DNA of 43,850 nt from Klenkia terrae. GTDB lineage: Bacteria; Actinomycetota; Actinomycetes; Mycobacteriales; Geodermatophilaceae. The notes beneath the pieces are model-generated. The model did not search any database. It was not told the origin of the DNA and saw only the letters and a list, made by a program, of their open reading frames with translations. The stretch covers positions 4,166,190 through 4,210,039 of the forward strand of contig NZ_UEXK01000004.1 of NCBI RefSeq assembly GCF_900491935.1, given 5' to 3'. Of this stretch, positions 35,166-42,979 are shown in pieces (within the stretch, counting starts at the first letter, position 1; every line of letters starts with the position of its first letter). The translations under genes were made by a program, and so were the position numbers.

Positions 35166-35171
35166 TCTAGG
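35166..35171. repeat. Target-site duplication of the IS481 element, left copy (TCTAGG)
   Basis: TCTAGG here and at 36301-36306 flank the element. The 6-bp form matches the NCTAGN target known for IS481. Its CTA (35167-35169) supplies the transposase stop codon. Confidence 0.85.
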
Positions 35172-36183
35172 TGTTGCTCGTCATGACGTTGGTGACGCCG
35201 GCGTGGAGGCGTGAGGCGGGTGGTCGGTTCCCGGCGGCGGTGTGTGGTCGGTGGTAGTTGTAGTGCACGGTCCAGACCGCGATCGCCTGGGCTCGTTGGG
35301 CTTCGGATGTCCAGGTGCGGGCGTAGAGCAGCTCCTCGGCCAGGATCCGCTGGTAGCGCTCGACCTTGCCGTTGTGCTTGGGCGTGAACGGCCGGGTCCG
35401 CTGGTGGCGGCTGGCGTCGAACAGTGACCTGGTGAACGCCCCGGCGCGGTAGCAGGACCCGTTGTCGGTGATGACCCGGGTGATGCGGCCGATGCCGTGG
35501 GCGCGGAAGAACGCGCGGGCGCGGGCGAAGAACGCGATGGCGGTCTTGGCGGTCTCGTTGGCCAGGGGTTCGGTGTAGGCCAGTCGGGAGAACCCGTCGA
35601 TGGCCGAGTGCAGGTAGACGTAGCCGGCCTTCTGGCCGGTCTTGGCCGCGGCGGTCTTGGCGCGTGCGGCGGCGCGGTCACCGTCGCTGCCGCGGCCGTG
35701 GGCGCGCCATCCGCCGCCGTCGGGGATGCGGCCGACCTTCTTCACATCGACGTGGATCATGTGCCCGGGGTAGCGGGCGGTGATCTTGCCTGGGGCGCGG
35801 TTGTTGTCCCCGTCGGGGTCCAGGAAGCGGCGGCGGTTGATGCCCAGTCGGGCCAGCCACCGTCCGACGGTGGCGGCGCTGATGTCCACACCGTCGCCGT
35901 TGAGCTCGGCGGTGATCAACCGCGCGGACCACTTCTTCTCCCGCCGCAGCGCCTCGATGCGGGCTACCACCTCGCCTTCGGTCTGGGTGGGGCTGGCGTG
36001 CGGGGCGCTGGAGCGGTCCAGCAGCCCGACCTCGCCAAGGGCGTCGTAGCGGTTCTTCCACTTGGACAGGCACTGCCGGGACACACCGGCCTCAGCAGCG
36101 ATGTGCGCGATCGGACGGGTAGCGCACCGGTCGATCAACCGCAGCCGGCCAGCAGGGGTCAAGGGCGCGTTAGCGTGGGACAA
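35167..36183 (-). CDS. IS481-family transposase
   Basis: This is a 338-residue DDE transposase. The N-terminal HTH (MSHANAPLTPAGRLRLIDRC, then IAHIAAEAGVSRQCLSKWKN) is typical of IS481. The catalytic triad is visible as Asp in HVDVKKVGR, Asp in VITDNGSCY and Glu in HNGKVERYQRIL. The start codon is TTG 36183, supported because the family N-terminus MSHANA follows it at once. The reading frame has no stop inside the element and ends in TAG supplied by the duplicated target site. No frameshift is seen, so the copy looks functional. Confidence 0.9.
   Translation of the reverse strand: MSHANAPLTPAGRLRLIDRCATRPIAHIAAEAGVSRQCLSKWKNRYDALGEVGLLDRSSAPHASPTQTEGEVVARIEALRREKKWSARLITAELNGDGVDISAATVGRWLARLGINRRRFLDPDGDNNRAPGKITARYPGHMIHVDVKKVGRIPDGGGWRAHGRGSDGDRAAARAKTAAAKTGQKAGYVYLHSAIDGFSRLAYTEPLANETAKTAIAFFARARAFFRAHGIGRITRVITDNGSCYRAGAFTRSLFDASRHQRTRPFTPKHNGKVERYQRILAEELLYARTWTSEAQRAQAIAVWTVHYNYHRPHTAAGNRPPASRLHAGVTNVMTSNT
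35172..35196 (+). repeat. Left terminal inverted repeat of the IS481 element
   Basis: It begins TGTTGC and ends GTTGGTGAC. It overlaps the last codons of the transposase. Confidence 0.85.
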
Positions 36184-36300: not shown

Positions 36301-36306
36301 TCTAGG
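36301..36306. repeat. Target-site duplication of the IS481 element, right copy (TCTAGG)
   Basis: This is the second copy of TCTAGG. Its CTA (36302-36304) is the TAG stop codon of the RNase J gene, so the insertion went exactly into that stop without changing the protein. Confidence 0.85.
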
Positions 36307-37987
36307 CGTCGATGACGACCGGGATGATCATCGGGCTGCGGCGGCCGTTGCGGTGCGCCCAGGTGGCCACCGCGCGGGTGATGAGCTGCTCGAGCTGCAG
36401 CGCCCCGCCGACGCCCTCCTCGGCCGCCTTCGCCAGCGCCTTCTCGATCAGCGGCACCACGGTGTCGAAGGTGCCCTCGTCGTGCACGAAGCCGCGGGCC
36501 AGGAAGTCCGGCGCCTCGGCCAGCAGGCCGGTGTCGGCGTCGACGATGGCGACCACCGTGATGACGCCCTCCTCGGCCAGGTTGCGCCGGTCCTTCAGCG
36601 AGGCCTCGGTGGCCCCGCCGACCGTCGCGCCGTCGACGTAGACGTTGCCGGCGCTGACCTTGCCGGTGATCCGGACCTTGCCGCCGACCAGGTCGACGAC
36701 GTTGCCGTCCTCGGCCAGCACGACCCCGCGGGGGTGCACACCGGTCTTGATCGCCAGCTCGCCGTTGGCCTTGAGGTGGCGCCACTCGCCGTGCACCGGC
36801 ATGACGTTGCGCGGCTTGACGATGTTGTAGCAGTAGACGAGCTCGCCGGCGCTGGCGTGGCCGGAGACGTGCACCTTGGCGTTGCCCTTGTGCACCACGT
36901 TGGCGCCCCAGCGGGTGAGCTCGTTGATGATCCGGTAGATCGCGTTCTCGTTGCCCGGGATGAGCGAGCTGGCCATCAGGACGGTGTCGCCCTCGGAGAT
37001 GCGGATGACGTGGTCGCGGTTGGCCATCCGGGACAGCGCGGCCATCGGCTCGCCCTGCGACCCGGTGCAGATGACGCACACCTGGTCGGCGGGCAGCTTG
37101 TCCATCTGCTTGAGGTCGACGACCAGGCCCTGCGGCACGTCGAGGTAGCCCAGCTCGCGGGCGATCCCCATGTTGCGGACCATCGAGCGGCCGACGAAGG
37201 CCACCTTGCGGCCGTGGGCGTGCGCGGCGTTGAGCACCTGCTGGATGCGGTGCACGTGGCTGGCGAAGCTGGACACGATGACCCGCTTGGGCGCGGTGCG
37301 GAACACGGTGTCGATGGCGGGGACGAGGTCGCCCTCGCTGAGGGTGAAGCCGGGGACCTCCGCGTTGGTGGAGTCGGTGAGGAAGAGGTCGACCCCCTCC
37401 TCGCCGAGCCGGGCGAACCCGCGCAGGTCGGTGATCCGCTGGTCCAGCGGGAACTGGTCCATCTTGAAGTCACCGGTGTGCAGGACCAACCCGGCCGGGG
37501 TGCGGATGGCCACGGCCAGCGCGTCGGGGATCGAGTGGTTGACCGCGAGGAACTCGGTGTCGAAGGGGCCCAGCGGCAGCCGCTCGCCCTCGGCGACCTG
37601 CCGGAGCACCGGCTTGATCTTGTGCTCCTCGAGCTTGGCCGAGATGAAGGCCAGCGTGAGCTTGGACCCGACCAGCGGGATGTCGCGGCGCTCGCGCAGC
37701 AGGTAGGGCACGCCGCCGATGTGGTCCTCGTGGCCGTGCGTGAGCACGATCGCCTCGATGTCGTCCAGCCGGTCCCGGATGGAGGTGAAGTCGGGGAGGA
37801 TGACGTCGACGCCGGGCTGGTGCTCCTCGGGGAACAGCACGCCGCAGTCGACGACGAGCAGCTTGCCGGCGTACTCGAAGACCGTCATGTTGCGGCCGAT
37901 CTCGCCGAGCCCGCCCAGCGCGACGATCCGCAGGCCCCCCTCCGAGAGGGGCGGCGGGGTCTTCAGCTCGGGGTGCGTGCGGCTCAT
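36302..37987 (-). CDS. rnj: Ribonuclease J
   Basis: This is a 561-residue metallo-beta-lactamase/beta-CASP ribonuclease with 5'-3' exo- and endonuclease roles in RNA maturation and decay. The zinc motif is VLTHGHEDHIGG; others are HTGDFKMDQ, TDSTNAEVPGF, ICTGSQGEPMAALSR and VSGHASAGEL. It has the full length of actinobacterial RNase J. ATG 37987 (MSRTHPELKT) is chosen because TAGCGT lies 7 nt upstream, so the mRNA may be leaderless. The stop TAG lies in the IS481 target duplication. The gene lies downstream of a DDN-like gene instead of the usual dapA. Confidence 0.95.
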   Translation of the reverse strand: MSRTHPELKTPPPLSEGGLRIVALGGLGEIGRNMTVFEYAGKLLVVDCGVLFPEEHQPGVDVILPDFTSIRDRLDDIEAIVLTHGHEDHIGGVPYLLRERRDIPLVGSKLTLAFISAKLEEHKIKPVLRQVAEGERLPLGPFDTEFLAVNHSIPDALAVAIRTPAGLVLHTGDFKMDQFPLDQRITDLRGFARLGEEGVDLFLTDSTNAEVPGFTLSEGDLVPAIDTVFRTAPKRVIVSSFASHVHRIQQVLNAAHAHGRKVAFVGRSMVRNMGIARELGYLDVPQGLVVDLKQMDKLPADQVCVICTGSQGEPMAALSRMANRDHVIRISEGDTVLMASSLIPGNENAIYRIINELTRWGANVVHKGNAKVHVSGHASAGELVYCYNIVKPRNVMPVHGEWRHLKANGELAIKTGVHPRGVVLAEDGNVVDLVGGKVRITGKVSAGNVYVDGATVGGATEASLKDRRNLAEEGVITVVAIVDADTGLLAEAPDFLARGFVHDEGTFDTVVPLIEKALAKAAEEGVGGALQLEQLITRAVATWAHRNGRRSPMIIPVVIDA

Positions 37988-37994
37988 GGGTGCC

Positions 37995-38000
37995 ACGCTA
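37995..38000 (-). promoter_or_regulatory. -10 box, leaderless start of RNase J
   Basis: Read leftward, TAGCGT ends 7 nt before ATG 37987. No Shine-Dalgarno sequence is seen. Confidence 0.45.
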
Positions 38001-38035
38001 CGGGGCCCCACCGACAGGACCGGCTGCGGCTCGGG

Positions 38036-38479
38036 TCAGGAGGCGGACGGTGACGACACGCGGGGCTCGAGCAGCACCACCGGGATGCGTCGTCGGGTGC
38101 GCCGCTGGTACTCCACGTACGAGGGGAACGTGCCGCAGGCCAGCGACCACCAGGCCGACCGCTCGGCACCGCTGACCTCGCGGGCCCGCAGGTCCAGCCG
38201 CAGGTCGCCGTCGCGCAGCTCGACGTCGGGGGAGGCCAGCACGTTGGCGTACCAGTGCGGGTGCGCCGGCCCGCCGCGGGTCGAGGCGACCGCCGCGTAG
38301 ACCCCGCGCATCTCCACCCGCATCAGCGGGGTCTTGCGCACCAGACCCGTGCGCCGTCCGCGGTGGGTGAGCAGCACCACCGCCCGCCCGCCGAACGCCG
38401 TCCCGGTGTCCTCGATGTGGGCGACCTCGTCGGCCACCCACGGCACCGGGCTCGGCGCGTACTCCCCGTCGACGGCCAC
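38036..38479 (-). CDS. DDN-like deazaflavin (F420)-dependent nitroreductase family protein
   Basis: This 147-residue split-barrel protein of the DUF385/DDN family is related to the mycobacterial nitroreductase that activates pretomanid. The order GEYAPSPVPWVADEVAHIED, VVLLTHRGRRTGLVRKTPLM, YAAVASTRGGPAHPHWYANV and LACGTFPSYVEYQRRTRR is diagnostic. The basic RKTPLMR segment binds F420. The native substrate is probably a quinone or lipid. GTG 38479 is the most likely start. It lies 48 nt upstream of RNase J on the same strand. Confidence 0.85.
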   Translation of the reverse strand: MAVDGEYAPSPVPWVADEVAHIEDTGTAFGGRAVVLLTHRGRRTGLVRKTPLMRVEMRGVYAAVASTRGGPAHPHWYANVLASPDVELRDGDLRLDLRAREVSGAERSAWWSLACGTFPSYVEYQRRTRRRIPVVLLEPRVSSPSAS

Positions 38480-38589
38480 GACGAGCAGTCTGCCCGGCGG
38501 TCCGACGGACGCCCGACCGTCCGTGCCGGCCGCCTGGGCGGTCTCACCCGTGCGGGGCAGCGGGGACACCACCGGACACCCGGGGTCGC

Positions 38590-38595
38590 TACCGT
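38590..38595 (+). promoter_or_regulatory. -10 box, leaderless start of the YbhN-like gene
   Basis: TACCGT ends 8 nt before ATG 38604. The 124-nt divergent gap to the DDN-like gene shows no other clear signal. Confidence 0.4.
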
Positions 38596-38603
38596 TCCCC
38601 ACG

Positions 38604-39668
38604 ATGAGCAGCGGTCCCGACCCGGAGACACCGGGTGGCCCGGTCACCGAGGTCGTGCGCGGCCCGGTGGCCCGGTGGTGGCGACCCGTGCTGGGCGGGG
38701 TCCTCGCGGTGGGCACCGTGGTGGTCCTCGTCGTCTTCTGGCGGTCCGTCGTCGGCTGGTTCGAGACGCTCGCGGGCACCGACCTGCGGTGGGCGTTCGC
38801 CGCGGCCGCCGTCCAGCTGCTGTCGATGCAGTGCCTGGTCTGGCAGCAGCAGCTGCTGCTGCGCTCGGGCGGCGGGGTGGCCCCGCAGGGCAGCCTGACC
38901 GCGACGGTCTACGGCGGCAACGCGATCGCCGTCGGCCTGCCGCTCGCGGGGTCGGCGGCCAGCGTGGCCTACGCCTTCCGCCGGATGCGCGACCTGGGCA
39001 ACAGCGCCGTGCTGGTCAGCTGGACCCTCGCCGTCTCCGGGGTGTGCTCGACGGTCGCGCTGGCCGCCGTCGTGGCGGTGAGCTCGGCGGCCACCGGGAG
39101 CACGGCCGGCGCGGTGGTGGCCTCGGTGGCGTCGGTCGCCGCCGTCGTCCCGGTCCTCACCTTGCTCGCCGTCACCCGCAGCCCCGAGGCCAAGCACCTG
39201 GTGGTCAAGCTGCTGATGGCCGTGCTGGCCCCGCTCTCGCGGTGGTTCAAGGTGCTGCGCCCGGCCGTGGTGGGCCCGGCCGTCGAGGACGCGCTGACCT
39301 CGCTGGGGGCCATCCGCCCCGGGGTGCGCAACGCGTCGGCCGCCGGCCTGCTGGCCCTGGCCAACTGGGTGCTGGACGCGGTCACCCTCGGCCTCGCCGC
39401 GCTCGCGGTCGGGTCGGGGCTGCCCTGGCAGGGCGTCGTGCTGGCCTGGGCGGCCGGGGCGCTGGTGTCCTCGACCCGGCTGACCCCCGGCGGCATCGGT
39501 GTGGTCGAGGCGGCGCTGGCCTCCGCGCTGGTCGCCGCGGGCATGCCGGCCGCCCAGGCGGTGCCGGTCGTGGTCGTCTACCGGTTGGTCAGCCTGTGGT
39601 TGCTGGCGGCGGTGGGCGCGCTGTGCCTGGTGCTGGCGCCGCGACCGGTGCACCCTGCGGAGGGGTGA
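38604..39668 (+). CDS. YbhN/LPG-synthase-TM-like flippase family membrane protein
   Basis: This 354-residue polytopic protein has about eight hydrophobic segments and a cytoplasmic N-terminus ([12 protein letters not shown]). The pattern [31 protein letters not shown] and [20 protein letters not shown] is that of the lysylphosphatidylglycerol-synthase transmembrane (UPF0104/YbhN) family, which moves or modifies lipids at the membrane. No synthase domain is attached. It may flip a lipid-linked substrate, but no partner gene is visible. The five-CSD gene follows after 70 nt. Confidence 0.86.
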
Positions 39669-39738: not shown

Positions 39739-41175
39739 ATGCCGCAGGGGTTCGTGAAGTGGTTCAACGCCGAGAAGGGGTTCGGTTTCATCGGACCCGA
39801 CGACGGCGGTGAGGACGTCTTCGTGCACTTCTCGGCCATCGAGGAGTCCGGTGGGTTCCGCAGCCTGGACGAGGGCGCGCGGGTCGAGTACGAGGCGAGC
39901 CCGGGCCAGCGCGGCCTGCAGGCCGACCGGGTGAGCCCGCTGGGCGGCCCGCCGGTGCAGGTCGACCGCTCGCAGTCCCGCGAGCCCCGCCGCGACGACC
40001 GGCGTGATGACCGTCGCGAGGAGCGCGCGCCCCGCCGCGAGGCGCCCCGCCGGGAGGCCCCGCGCCGCGAGGCGCCCCGGGCGTCCGCCGGTGGCGGCGC
40101 CGAGGGCACGGTGCAGTTCTTCAACTCCGAGAAGGGGTTCGGCTTCATCACCCCGGACGACGGCGGCGACGACGTCTTCGTGCACTTCTCCGCGATCGCC
40201 GACGACGGTGGCTACCGCTCCCTCGAGGAGGGCCAGCGCGTGCTGTTCGAGGCGGCGCAGGGTGACCGCGGGCTGCAGGCAACCCACGTCGAGCCCCTCG
40301 CCGGTGGCGGCGGCGGCCACGACGCCGGGTACGACGACGGCGGGTACGACGGCGGCGGCGCGGCCGGCTCGGGCCTGCCCCAGGCCACCGTGCGCTTCTT
40401 CAACGCCGAGAAGGGCTTCGGCTTCCTGCAGCCCGACGACGGCGGGGACGACGTCTTCGTGCACTTCTCCGCGATCGCCGACGACGGCGGCTACCGCTCC
40501 CTCGACGAGGGCCAGCGCGTGGAGTTCGAGGCCGCGCAGGGCGACCGCGGGCTGCAGGCCACCCACGTGCAGCCGCTGGGCTCCACCGGCGGTGGCGGCC
40601 CGCGCGGCAACGCCGGCGGGTACGGCGGCGGCTCCGGGCTGGCCCAGGGCACCGTCCGGTTCTTCAACGCCGACAAGGGCTTCGGGTTCGTCGAGCCCGA
40701 CGACGGGTCGCGCGACGTGTTCGTGCACTTCTCCGTGATCGAGGACGACGGCGGCTACGGCGACCTCGAGGAGGGCCAGCGCGTCGAGTTCGCGGCCAGC
40801 CAGGGTGACCGCGGTCCGCAGGCCGACGTCGTCCGTCCGCTGGACTCCGCCGGCCCGCCGCCGCGGCGCGACCCGGCCCGCCGCGAGGCACGCCGGGACC
40901 CCTCCCGGTCGACCCCGCGGGAGCGCTCGCGCAGCGCCGCGCGGGCGGTGCCGACCCCCATCGAGGGCGGTCAGGAGGGCACCGTGAAGTGGTTCCACGC
41001 GGAGAAGGGGTTCGGCTTCATCGCACCCGACGACGGCAGCGCCGACGTGTTCGTGCACTTCTCGGCGATCGCCGACCGCGGCGGCTACCGGGACCTCGAG
41101 GAGGGCCAGCGGGTGCAGTTCACCGCCACCCCCGCCGAGCGCGGCCCCCAGGCCGACGCGGTGGAGCCGATCTAG
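39739..41175 (+). CDS. Five-cold-shock-domain RNA-binding protein
   Basis: This is a 478-residue protein made of five cold-shock domains (CSD), at about residues 2-68, 121-187, 214-280, 302-368 and 412-478. Each carries the RNA-binding motifs KGFGF(I/L/V) (RNP1) and VFVHFS (RNP2). Linker 1 (69-120) is an Arg/Glu/Asp repeat ([12 protein letters not shown], then APRRE units). Linkers 2 and 3 are Gly/Tyr-rich, and linker 4 (369-411) is Arg/Ser-rich. Bacterial Csp proteins normally have one CSD of about 70 residues. Five is the number in eukaryotic UNR/CSDE1. It probably binds several RNA sites at once and may condense, but its role is unknown. ATG 39739 follows GAGCAGGG. Confidence 0.92.
40165..40289 (+). 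repeat. DNA repeat in cold-shock domain 2
   Basis: This 125-bp segment matches 40444-40568 at about nine bases in ten, with most differences at third codon positions. It marks a recent duplication of domain 2 or 3. Confidence 0.8.
40444..40568 (+). repeat. DNA repeat in cold-shock domain 3
   Basis: This is the second copy of the 125-bp duplicated segment in the five-CSD gene. Confidence 0.8.
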
Positions 41176-41179
41176 GCAG

Positions 41180-42979
41180 TCACTGCTGCAGCACGTCGCG
41201 GCCGGCACCGGCCACCGGGAAGGTGGCGGTGCCGGCCGTCGCCGTCCCGGGGTCCTCGCGGGTGAGGAAGGTGGTCCAGCCGAACCCGTCGACGAGCTCG
41301 GGCACGAGGGTCTCGTCGCTGCTCGGGAAGCCCAGCACGACGCGGACCCCCGGTGGTGCGGCGACCACCACGGTGCGGGTGTAGGCGTCGCCGACGTCCA
41401 CGCAGGTGGCCGCCACGACCAGGTCGACGATGTCGGTCCCGGCCGGGTAGCCGGTGCTCCCGCAGCCGCCGCCGAAGGACAGGACCGTGCTGCCGTCCTC
41501 CGCGGTCGTCTGGGCTGCGGTGCCGGTGGTGGTGACGACGGCGCCGCCGGGGAGGACGACGGCCAAGCTGACGACGTCCAGCGTGCCGCCGGCCGCGGCG
41601 GGCAGGGTGCCGGCGCCCAGGACGGTGACCTCGAGGTCCTCCTCGGCCCACCCGGTCGCGGCGACGACGGTGGACAGCGCCGATGCGTAGGCCCCGGCGG
41701 CGGCGGTCGGGGCGCCGGACCGGCTGGGCGGGCCGGTGCCGCCGGTCCCGACGTCGAGGTGGACGGGGGTGCTCGAGACGGGCCAGATGTCCTCGGTGAG
41801 GTCGCCCGGTCGCCCGACCTGGAGCCGGATGCCGGCGTCGCTGGTGCGGTCGAGGGTGGTGGCGGCGACCCCTCCCCGGGAGGGGACGTCGACGTAGGTC
41901 CGTCCTGCGGCGCCCGTGGCCGGGTCGACGTCGACCCCGGCCGAGACCCGCACGGTGTCGCCGTCCTCGGTGAGGACCACGAGGCGGGTCGTGCCGGCGG
42001 CCGGGTCGGGCAGCGAGACAGCCATGCCGGCCGAGCCGAACGGGGTCGAGAAGCCGACGGTGTGCACGTCCAGCCGGGCTGCCGCGGTGCCGGCCGGCCC
42101 GGTCAGCCACGCGAGGTCCATCTGCCCGGCGCCCGGGTGCATCATCAGGACCGCGCGGATGCCCTCGACGTCGTCGGCGTAGAGGACCCGGTAGTCCGCG
42201 CCGGTCGCGCCCTCGGCGTCGAGTCGCCGCCGCAGCTGGGCGAGCAGGTCCTCGTCGTCGGCGAGCGCCCCACGGGGTGGGAGGGCGAAGATCCCGCGCA
42301 GCTCGGCTGCCGTCGTCGTCCTGGACGGGGTGGCGGTCGCCGTCGCCGTCGCCGCTGGGTCGGGCGCCGTGTCCGGCAGCCATGCGCCACCCGCGACCAG
42401 CCCGGCCACGGCGGTGACGGCGAGGAGGGCCTGGCAGGTGTGCCGGGTCCGGGTGCCGCGGACTGCGGCGGTGACGGTGTCGTCGTCCAGGGTGCCCGCG
42501 TCGCAGAGGCCGGCGAGGTCGTCGAGGCGGCGGGGCAGCACGTTGGGGTCGACCGGCAGCCGACCGGCCGCGGCCTCGGGGTCGGCGCCAGGGACGAGGG
42601 CGGTGATCTGTTCGGGAGCGAGGTCCTCGAACCACCGCAGCACGACGGCGGTGCGGTCGTCGCGGCCGAGGTCGTCGAGGGCGTCGGCGAGCTGGTGGGC
42701 GGCAGCGGCGGCTTCCGGCGAGCTCCACCAGGGGACGGCAGGCGTGCCCTGGATGCTTGCCCGGCCGGTGAGCCGCCATCGGCTGCGGTGGGCGCGGACG
42801 AGGGCGTCGAGGGCGGTTCGCCGATCGGCGATCGGCGGGCGCCGCCGGGCGAGGGTGCGGACGACGAGCTGCCGGGCCGCCGCCTGGTCCCCGGTCAGGA
42901 GGTAGGCCGTCGGCAGCAGCTCCCGCCAGTGCGCCCGGACCAGGTCGTCGCGAGCCGCCACGGCTCCAGTGAACTGCAC
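41180..42979 (-). CDS. Sigma-factor-like protein fused to a membrane and extracytoplasmic domain
   Basis: This is a 599-residue hybrid. Residues 9-50 look like region 2 of SigE-family sigma factors (DDLVRAHWRELLPTAYLLTG). Residues 94-135 look like region 4 (ADALDDLGRDDRTAVVLRWF, then EDLAPEQITALVPG), but the segment between is short and poorly conserved. A membrane segment follows (about 182-200), then about 400 residues that are mostly beta, acidic and extracytoplasmic, ending in PVAGAGRDVLQQ. No known domain is recognised there. It may be a membrane-tethered sigma or a sigma-derived anti-sigma/sensor. The start is GTG 42979. It converges on the five-CSD gene with a 4-nt gap. Confidence 0.72.
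   Translation of the reverse strand: MQFTGAVAARDDLVRAHWRELLPTAYLLTGDQAAARQLVVRTLARRRPPIADRRTALDALVRAHRSRWRLTGRASIQGTPAVPWWSSPEAAAAAHQLADALDDLGRDDRTAVVLRWFEDLAPEQITALVPGADPEAAAGRLPVDPNVLPRRLDDLAGLCDAGTLDDDTVTAAVRGTRTRHTCQALLAVTAVAGLVAGGAWLPDTAPDPAATATATATPSRTTTAAELRGIFALPPRGALADDEDLLAQLRRRLDAEGATGADYRVLYADDVEGIRAVLMMHPGAGQMDLAWLTGPAGTAAARLDVHTVGFSTPFGSAGMAVSLPDPAAGTTRLVVLTEDGDTVRVSAGVDVDPATGAAGRTYVDVPSRGGVAATTLDRTSDAGIRLQVGRPGDLTEDIWPVSSTPVHLDVGTGGTGPPSRSGAPTAAAGAYASALSTVVAATGWAEEDLEVTVLGAGTLPAAAGGTLDVVSLAVVLPGGAVVTTTGTAAQTTAEDGSTVLSFGGGCGSTGYPAGTDIVDLVVAATCVDVGDAYTRTVVVAAPPGVRVVLGFPSSDETLVPELVDGFGWTTFLTREDPGTATAGTATFPVAGAGRDVLQQ

Follow-up and report, generated by a model that had tools for sequence, protein, structure and literature searches.

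The single domain is treated as the norm for bacterial cold-shock proteins in the available part of one review (PMC7825780), and one phylogeny of these proteins dropped all sequences over 87 aa, according to the accessible portion of that work, so that long forms were filtered out there (PMC6719143). Bacterial proteins with two cold-shock domains (CSDs) have already been published, and the excerpted text of one study describes CspD of Caulobacter crescentus, a stationary-phase-induced protein with two CSDs (PMC4830024). Multi-CSD proteins of bacteria have not gone wholly unnoticed, as a Clostridium protein that combines canonical CSDs with pseudo-CSDs is mentioned in a passage of PMC7383231, a passage that also places four pseudo-CSDs between the five canonical CSDs of UNR. 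The multiple S1 domains of ribosomal protein S1 are mentioned in the excerpt of a further source (PMC12787238). Our searches of the open-access literature brought up no published protein from a bacterium in which three, four or five CSDs are joined.

Our study examined a window of 43,850 nucleotides of DNA from Klenkia terrae, an actinobacterium of soil (the whole stretch analysed), in which a gene on the forward strand (39739..41175) encodes a protein of 478 aa plus stop. The frame opens with ATG at 39739, continues in sense codons up to 41172 and closes with a stop that ends at 41175. The motif GCAGGAG lies directly 5' of the ATG and is identical in all eight aligned Klenkia-type upstream regions, whereas the DNA before it varies; its conservation fits the 39739 start. 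A promoter and terminator scan of the locus found nothing and was uninformative at this GC content. The five CSDs matched PF00313 (Pfam, own genome) with E-values of 8.1e-26, 2.1e-25, 2.2e-25, 1.2e-24 and 6.2e-24, which exclude a chance origin. All five scored 86-92 bits, above the curated cut-off of 27 bits, and the whole 478 aa protein reached 418 bits over five stretches. The motifs KGFGF (RNP1) and VFVHF (RNP2) are present in each, which confirms the five complete CSDs with both motifs proposed by the initial annotation. The NCBIfam equivalog names CspE, CspG and CspD were rejected, as judged from whole-protein bits, since their cut-offs are reached only by summing five domains. PADLOC matched only its CSD profile and gave no sign of a defence system.

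All nine Klenkia genomes searched (genus assigned by similarity) hold five domains, and seven of them, our own included, match residues 1-478 without a break in the frame. In one of the nine the match is interrupted by contig ends. A single-contig Klenkia genome (L095, L097) carries a frame change in linker 4 that places CSD5 in another frame; this break may be genuine or may stem from a sequencing error. Misassembly of the frame, a possibility raised by the initial annotation, is unlikely, because the five domains are found in all nine genomes and lie in a single frame in seven.

The domain borders, set by a motif-anchored cut, divide the frame into five CSDs and four linkers of 21-52 aa, all on the forward strand and with every CSD matching PF00313. 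CSD1 (39739..39939; aa 1-67) is followed by linker 1 (39940..40095), which consists of Arg/Asp/Glu/Pro repeats (REAPR) with a charged fraction of 0.52 and pLDDT <50 at aa 76-119. CSD2 (40096..40296; aa 120-186) and CSD3 (40375..40575; aa 213-279), which are 84 % identical at the protein level, are separated by linker 2 (40297..40374), composed of Gly/Asp/Tyr with a charged fraction of 0.15 and pLDDT <50 at aa 189-210. The Gly-rich linker 3 (40576..40638; charged fraction 0.05; pLDDT <50 at aa 282-299) leads to CSD4 (40639..40839; aa 301-367), and the Arg/Ser/Pro linker 4 (40840..40968; charged fraction 0.40; pLDDT <50 at aa 370-404) leads to CSD5 (40969..41169; aa 411-477). The four linkers thus fall into the three composition classes first named for them. 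An AlphaFold2 model built on a shallow alignment of 11 rows predicted 25 strands, five per domain, forming five five-stranded barrels, with a mean pLDDT of 65.9, a pTM of 0.26 and all four linkers below pLDDT 50. The low pTM and linker scores mean that no fixed arrangement of the domains is predicted, and the model indicates that the linkers are likely to be disordered.

The binding face was read against Bacillus subtilis CspB, the sequence of which was checked against 1csp. Positions F9, K13, F15, F17, F27, H29, F30 and R56 of CspB are kept in all five CSDs, and the F38 position holds Phe or Tyr. We take F15, F17, F27, H29, F30 and R56 of CspB to be nucleic-acid-binding residues, and the aromatic face of all five domains is intact. 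The W8 position is Trp in CSD1 and CSD5 (2/5) and Phe in CSD2, CSD3 and CSD4 (3/5), a W-F-F-F-W pattern seen in each of the five Klenkia-type genes checked. The inner domains CSD2-4 may bind more weakly owing to Phe in place of Trp. 'Strong ends, weaker middle' is not a general rule, because Trp occupies this position in all domains of g9 and g4a and Phe occupies it in the last Modestobacter domain. Arg is found there in both inner domains of g2 and in the middle domain of the type B proteins described below.

Compared with the described systems, the Klenkia protein shares its domain family, RNP1/RNP2 and binding-face residues with CspA, CspB and CspE of the CspA family, but these are single domains of ~70 aa, and the classical bacterial format (one CSD, about 65-90 aa) differs from a chain of five CSDs, linkers and 478 aa. 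The Caulobacter CspC/CspD type of the Alphaproteobacteria is alike in having several CSDs in one bacterial chain, but it has two rather than five and belongs to another phylum, and a common origin of the arrays is without support. Ribosomal protein S1 is alike in the principle of several OB-fold RNA grips per chain, although its tandem OB folds are S1 domains and not CSDs. The initial annotation had drawn a parallel with the animal protein UNR/CSDE1; this stands for the five canonical CSDs in one chain but not for kinship or for the pseudo-CSDs. The closest solved structures are bacterial cold-shock proteins (best E 5.5e-22), whereas CSDE1 (one chain, E 0.0031) and UNR (two chains, E 0.022 and 0.032) are among the weakest CSD matches and their domains are remote sequence relatives. 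Non-canonical CSDs between the canonical ones are absent, and linkers of only 21-52 aa leave no room for the four pseudo-CSDs of UNR. Homology to UNR was rejected on these grounds and on the low confidence of the linkers. The versions with three or four copies in relatives of Klenkia point to a nucleic-acid binder with many grips that evolved locally, and not to kinship with UNR.

The spread of such proteins was examined by a homology search of genome contigs with six peptides from the query, of which the best 80 of 360 loci were used. This search misses forms without those peptides, and the three-domain forms of genus g4 are absent from the best 80. Among these 80 loci, the closest named relatives were Klenkia soli, K. 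marina, K. brasiliensis, K. taihuensis, a MAG and 'Modestobacter sp. Leaf380', and two-CSD frames, recognized by motif, occurred at six. The genus name of 'Modestobacter sp. Leaf380' (L013) looks out of date, because this strain shares with Klenkia both the gene order and the five CSDs; the Modestobacter genes read whole have four CSDs. In a sample of 57 Geodermatophilaceae genomes from 12 genera (coded g1 to g12), a gene with at least three CSDs was found in 31 genomes and six genera, with 27 genes read whole and four broken by a frame change, contig ends or Ns. Five CSDs were found in g1 (nine genomes), four in g2 (three genomes), g6 (eight genomes, two broken by contig end or Ns) and g9 (one genome), and three in g3 (one genome) and g4 (nine genomes). 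No array of at least three CSDs was found among the matches listed for the 26 genomes of g5, g7, g8, g10, g11 and g12; the list was complete for 11 of these, and 15 were judged by counts leaving at most one match unlisted or by at most two matches. Beyond the family, a four-CSD protein was found in at least 2 of 42 genomes from other families of the same order, proteins with four, four and three CSDs in 3 of 33 genomes from other orders of the class, and no such protein in 55 genomes from other classes of the phylum. In this comparison across actinobacteria, suggested by the initial annotation, the arrays had three to five CSDs depending on genus. Five was the largest number seen. The five-CSD protein stands less alone among bacteria than the initial annotation implied, as proteins with three or four CSDs are common in the family and present elsewhere in the class.

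Three patterns were named among these proteins. Type A (at least three CSDs, with a CSD1 that begins MPQG or MPHG and groups with other CSD1) was found in g1, g2, part of g4, g6 and g9. The Klenkia five-CSD protein shows this pattern and is the longest member seen of the tandem-CSD lineage of Geodermatophilaceae, which includes proteins of three, four and five domains. Type B, found in g3 and the remaining g4, has three CSDs with a short second domain. Four of the g4 genomes carry type A, five carry type B and none was observed to have both, and the two types look mutually exclusive within this genus. Type C, found in families f10, f15 and f63, has four diverged CSDs; in f10 and f15 (the two aligned), the F30 position is taken by Ala, Ser or Val. 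Type C (L134, L135, L144) is common to three families, with f63 in another order, and its domain order is kept. The proteins with three or four CSDs in Modestobacter and other genera of Actinomycetes are of the same kind as that of Klenkia; their CSD1 groups with Klenkia CSD1 in three genera and some share the downstream neighbour gene of Klenkia. They differ in domain number, linkers and inner domains, the latter being diverged in types B and C.

A tree of 99 domain sequences (~67 positions) grouped Klenkia CSD2 with CSD3 (support 0.88) and CSD4 with CSD5 (support 0.91), and placed CSD1 of Klenkia, Modestobacter, g2 and g9 in one clade of 14 (support 0.77), with g4a CSD1 outside. These groupings are duplication-like and point to growth of the array by duplication within each lineage. 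In Modestobacter (L015, L016, L017 and other loci), hardly any differences separate the inner CSDs within one protein, and CSD2, CSD3 and CSD4 intermix in the tree, which recent duplication or gene conversion would give. Among six Klenkia-type genes, dN/dS was 0.14, 0.20, 0.25, 0.21 and 0.29 for CSD1 to CSD5 and 0.18, 0.32, 0.56 and 0.59 for linkers 1 to 4, the linkers also varying in length. All five domains are therefore kept under purifying selection, and linker sequence is looser, except for linker 1; linkers 3 and 4 are weakly constrained, and the linker type differs between genera.

Multivalent nucleic-acid binding is the natural reading of five intact CSDs on probably disordered linkers. 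We consider it probable that the protein is a multivalent single-strand binder, and an RNA chaperone in the wide sense, built as a tandem array of five CspA-type domains on flexible linkers. The five domains would have arisen by duplication inside one gene. Each CSD would grip a short pyrimidine-rich segment of ssRNA or ssDNA, and the tether would make binding additive (avidity), so that one molecule could retain a long single strand, or bind several simultaneously, and prevent the held strand from refolding. CSDs accept both ssRNA and ssDNA and show limited sequence selectivity, as stated in the available part of PMC7825780; RNA would presumably be the main ligand and stress the setting. As its own genome has two further CSD genes (frames of 70 and 134 aa), RNA chaperoning in the cell may rest mainly on proteins other than the array.

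The neighbourhood of the gene was described by targeted searches for named neighbours. Upstream of the array lie an LPG_synthase_TM gene (38334-39668; Pfam), then an F420H2 quinone reductase gene on the other strand, and then an RNase J gene on the reverse strand (36302-38011), with an IS481-type transposase gene, also on the reverse strand (35167-36183), beside it. The LPG_synthase_TM gene was found at all seven Klenkia-type named loci and RNase J at six of the seven (the seventh being a short contig), and, within the flanks fetched, neither was found at the 27 loci of other genera. RNase J is separated from the array by two genes, as the initial annotation had it, but it is not a telling neighbour, and a link was rejected because the association is genus-specific. 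Downstream, a convergent gene on the reverse strand (41180..42979) has no Pfam match and has weak relatives (30-32 % identity) near some Modestobacter four-CSD genes; a relative also lies near one g4 array. The Modestobacter protein that served as the second query contains sigma-70 region 4. The presence of these relatives beside other arrays fits common descent of the locus. A uracil-DNA glycosylase gene was also seen near type A arrays, at <1 kb in g2 and ~3 kb in three g4 genomes (L116, L118, L119, L120, L122, L124).

A possible partner is suggested by the three-CSD form. At all six type B loci (L121, L123, L137, L138, L141, L142), the array gene follows lhr on the same strand, with 66-97 bp between the end of the lhr match and its own start, and at five of the six a nei-like glycosylase gene follows 1.6-3.2 kb after lhr on the same strand, the sixth contig ending; the family assignments come from Pfam on one locus. 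The multi-CSD proteins of the family might protect single strands or hand them over to repair helicases such as Lhr, at R-loops or in repair, and the Klenkia protein would do likewise from another locus. This alternative survives best, although we regard it as unlikely. The exclusion of types A and B from one another in g4 and the binding of ssDNA as well as RNA by CSDs (in the available part of PMC7825780) would suit it, but no CSD was seen near lhr, within the stretch fetched, in ten type A genomes (our own included) and three array-free genomes, and the Klenkia array lies ~0.54 Mb from lhr. In 12 of these 13 genomes, nei follows lhr at 0.2-3.9 kb; as the pair also occurs without an array, the type B gene of one branch sits in a pre-existing lhr-nei cluster. 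The argument is one of guilt by association, since the adjacency may go back to a single insertion that was inherited, and because the domain patterns of the two types are not alike, a shared function would be a guess. A combined reading, in which the protein is a bacterial counterpart of UNR reached by independent domain multiplication, with domains specialized at the W8 position (Trp at the ends, Phe or Arg inside) and the array acting as a holder of single strands on behalf of repair helicases, a role suggested by the lhr-linked form, is less probable again.

Just behind it, and improbable, we place a regulator that works like UNR, in which the five domains would recognize specific sites on a small number of target RNAs and control how these are translated or degraded, RNase J possibly taking part. 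A chain with five canonical CSDs would fit such a protein, and the difference between inner and outer Klenkia domains at the W8 position would suit divided labour. It is opposed by the lack of pseudo-CSDs between the domains, by the weakness of the CSDE1/UNR matches (E 0.003-0.03), by an RNase J that is adjacent only in Klenkia and by a domain number that varies from three to five between genera. Lower still we rate condensate formation, in which the charged and Gly-rich linkers and the five grips would cause phase separation with RNA when cells are stressed or dry out. The low model confidence of the linkers, the charged fraction of linker 1 (0.52), the Gly-rich linkers 2 and 3 and the charged or RGG-like linkers of relatives with three or four CSDs are all in keeping with condensates; however, this is an argument from composition, linker type changes between genera, and the linkers are short with few aromatic residues. 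An artefact, in which a repeat was collapsed or fused in assembly or a frame arose by chance in GC-rich DNA, has a negligible probability and is refuted for practical purposes by the same frame in seven independent Klenkia genomes, codon-level purifying selection in the 39739-41175 frame and the PF00313 E-values, despite the high GC content, the long mechanical ORFs of the opposite strand and the frame change in the last linker of one Klenkia genome.

In summary, a multivalent single-strand binder remains the reading that we prefer for the five-CSD protein of Klenkia. The lhr-linked three-CSD form offers a concrete, testable partner, and sister genera whose arrays range from three to five CSDs provide a natural experiment on the avidity needed by a cold-shock protein.
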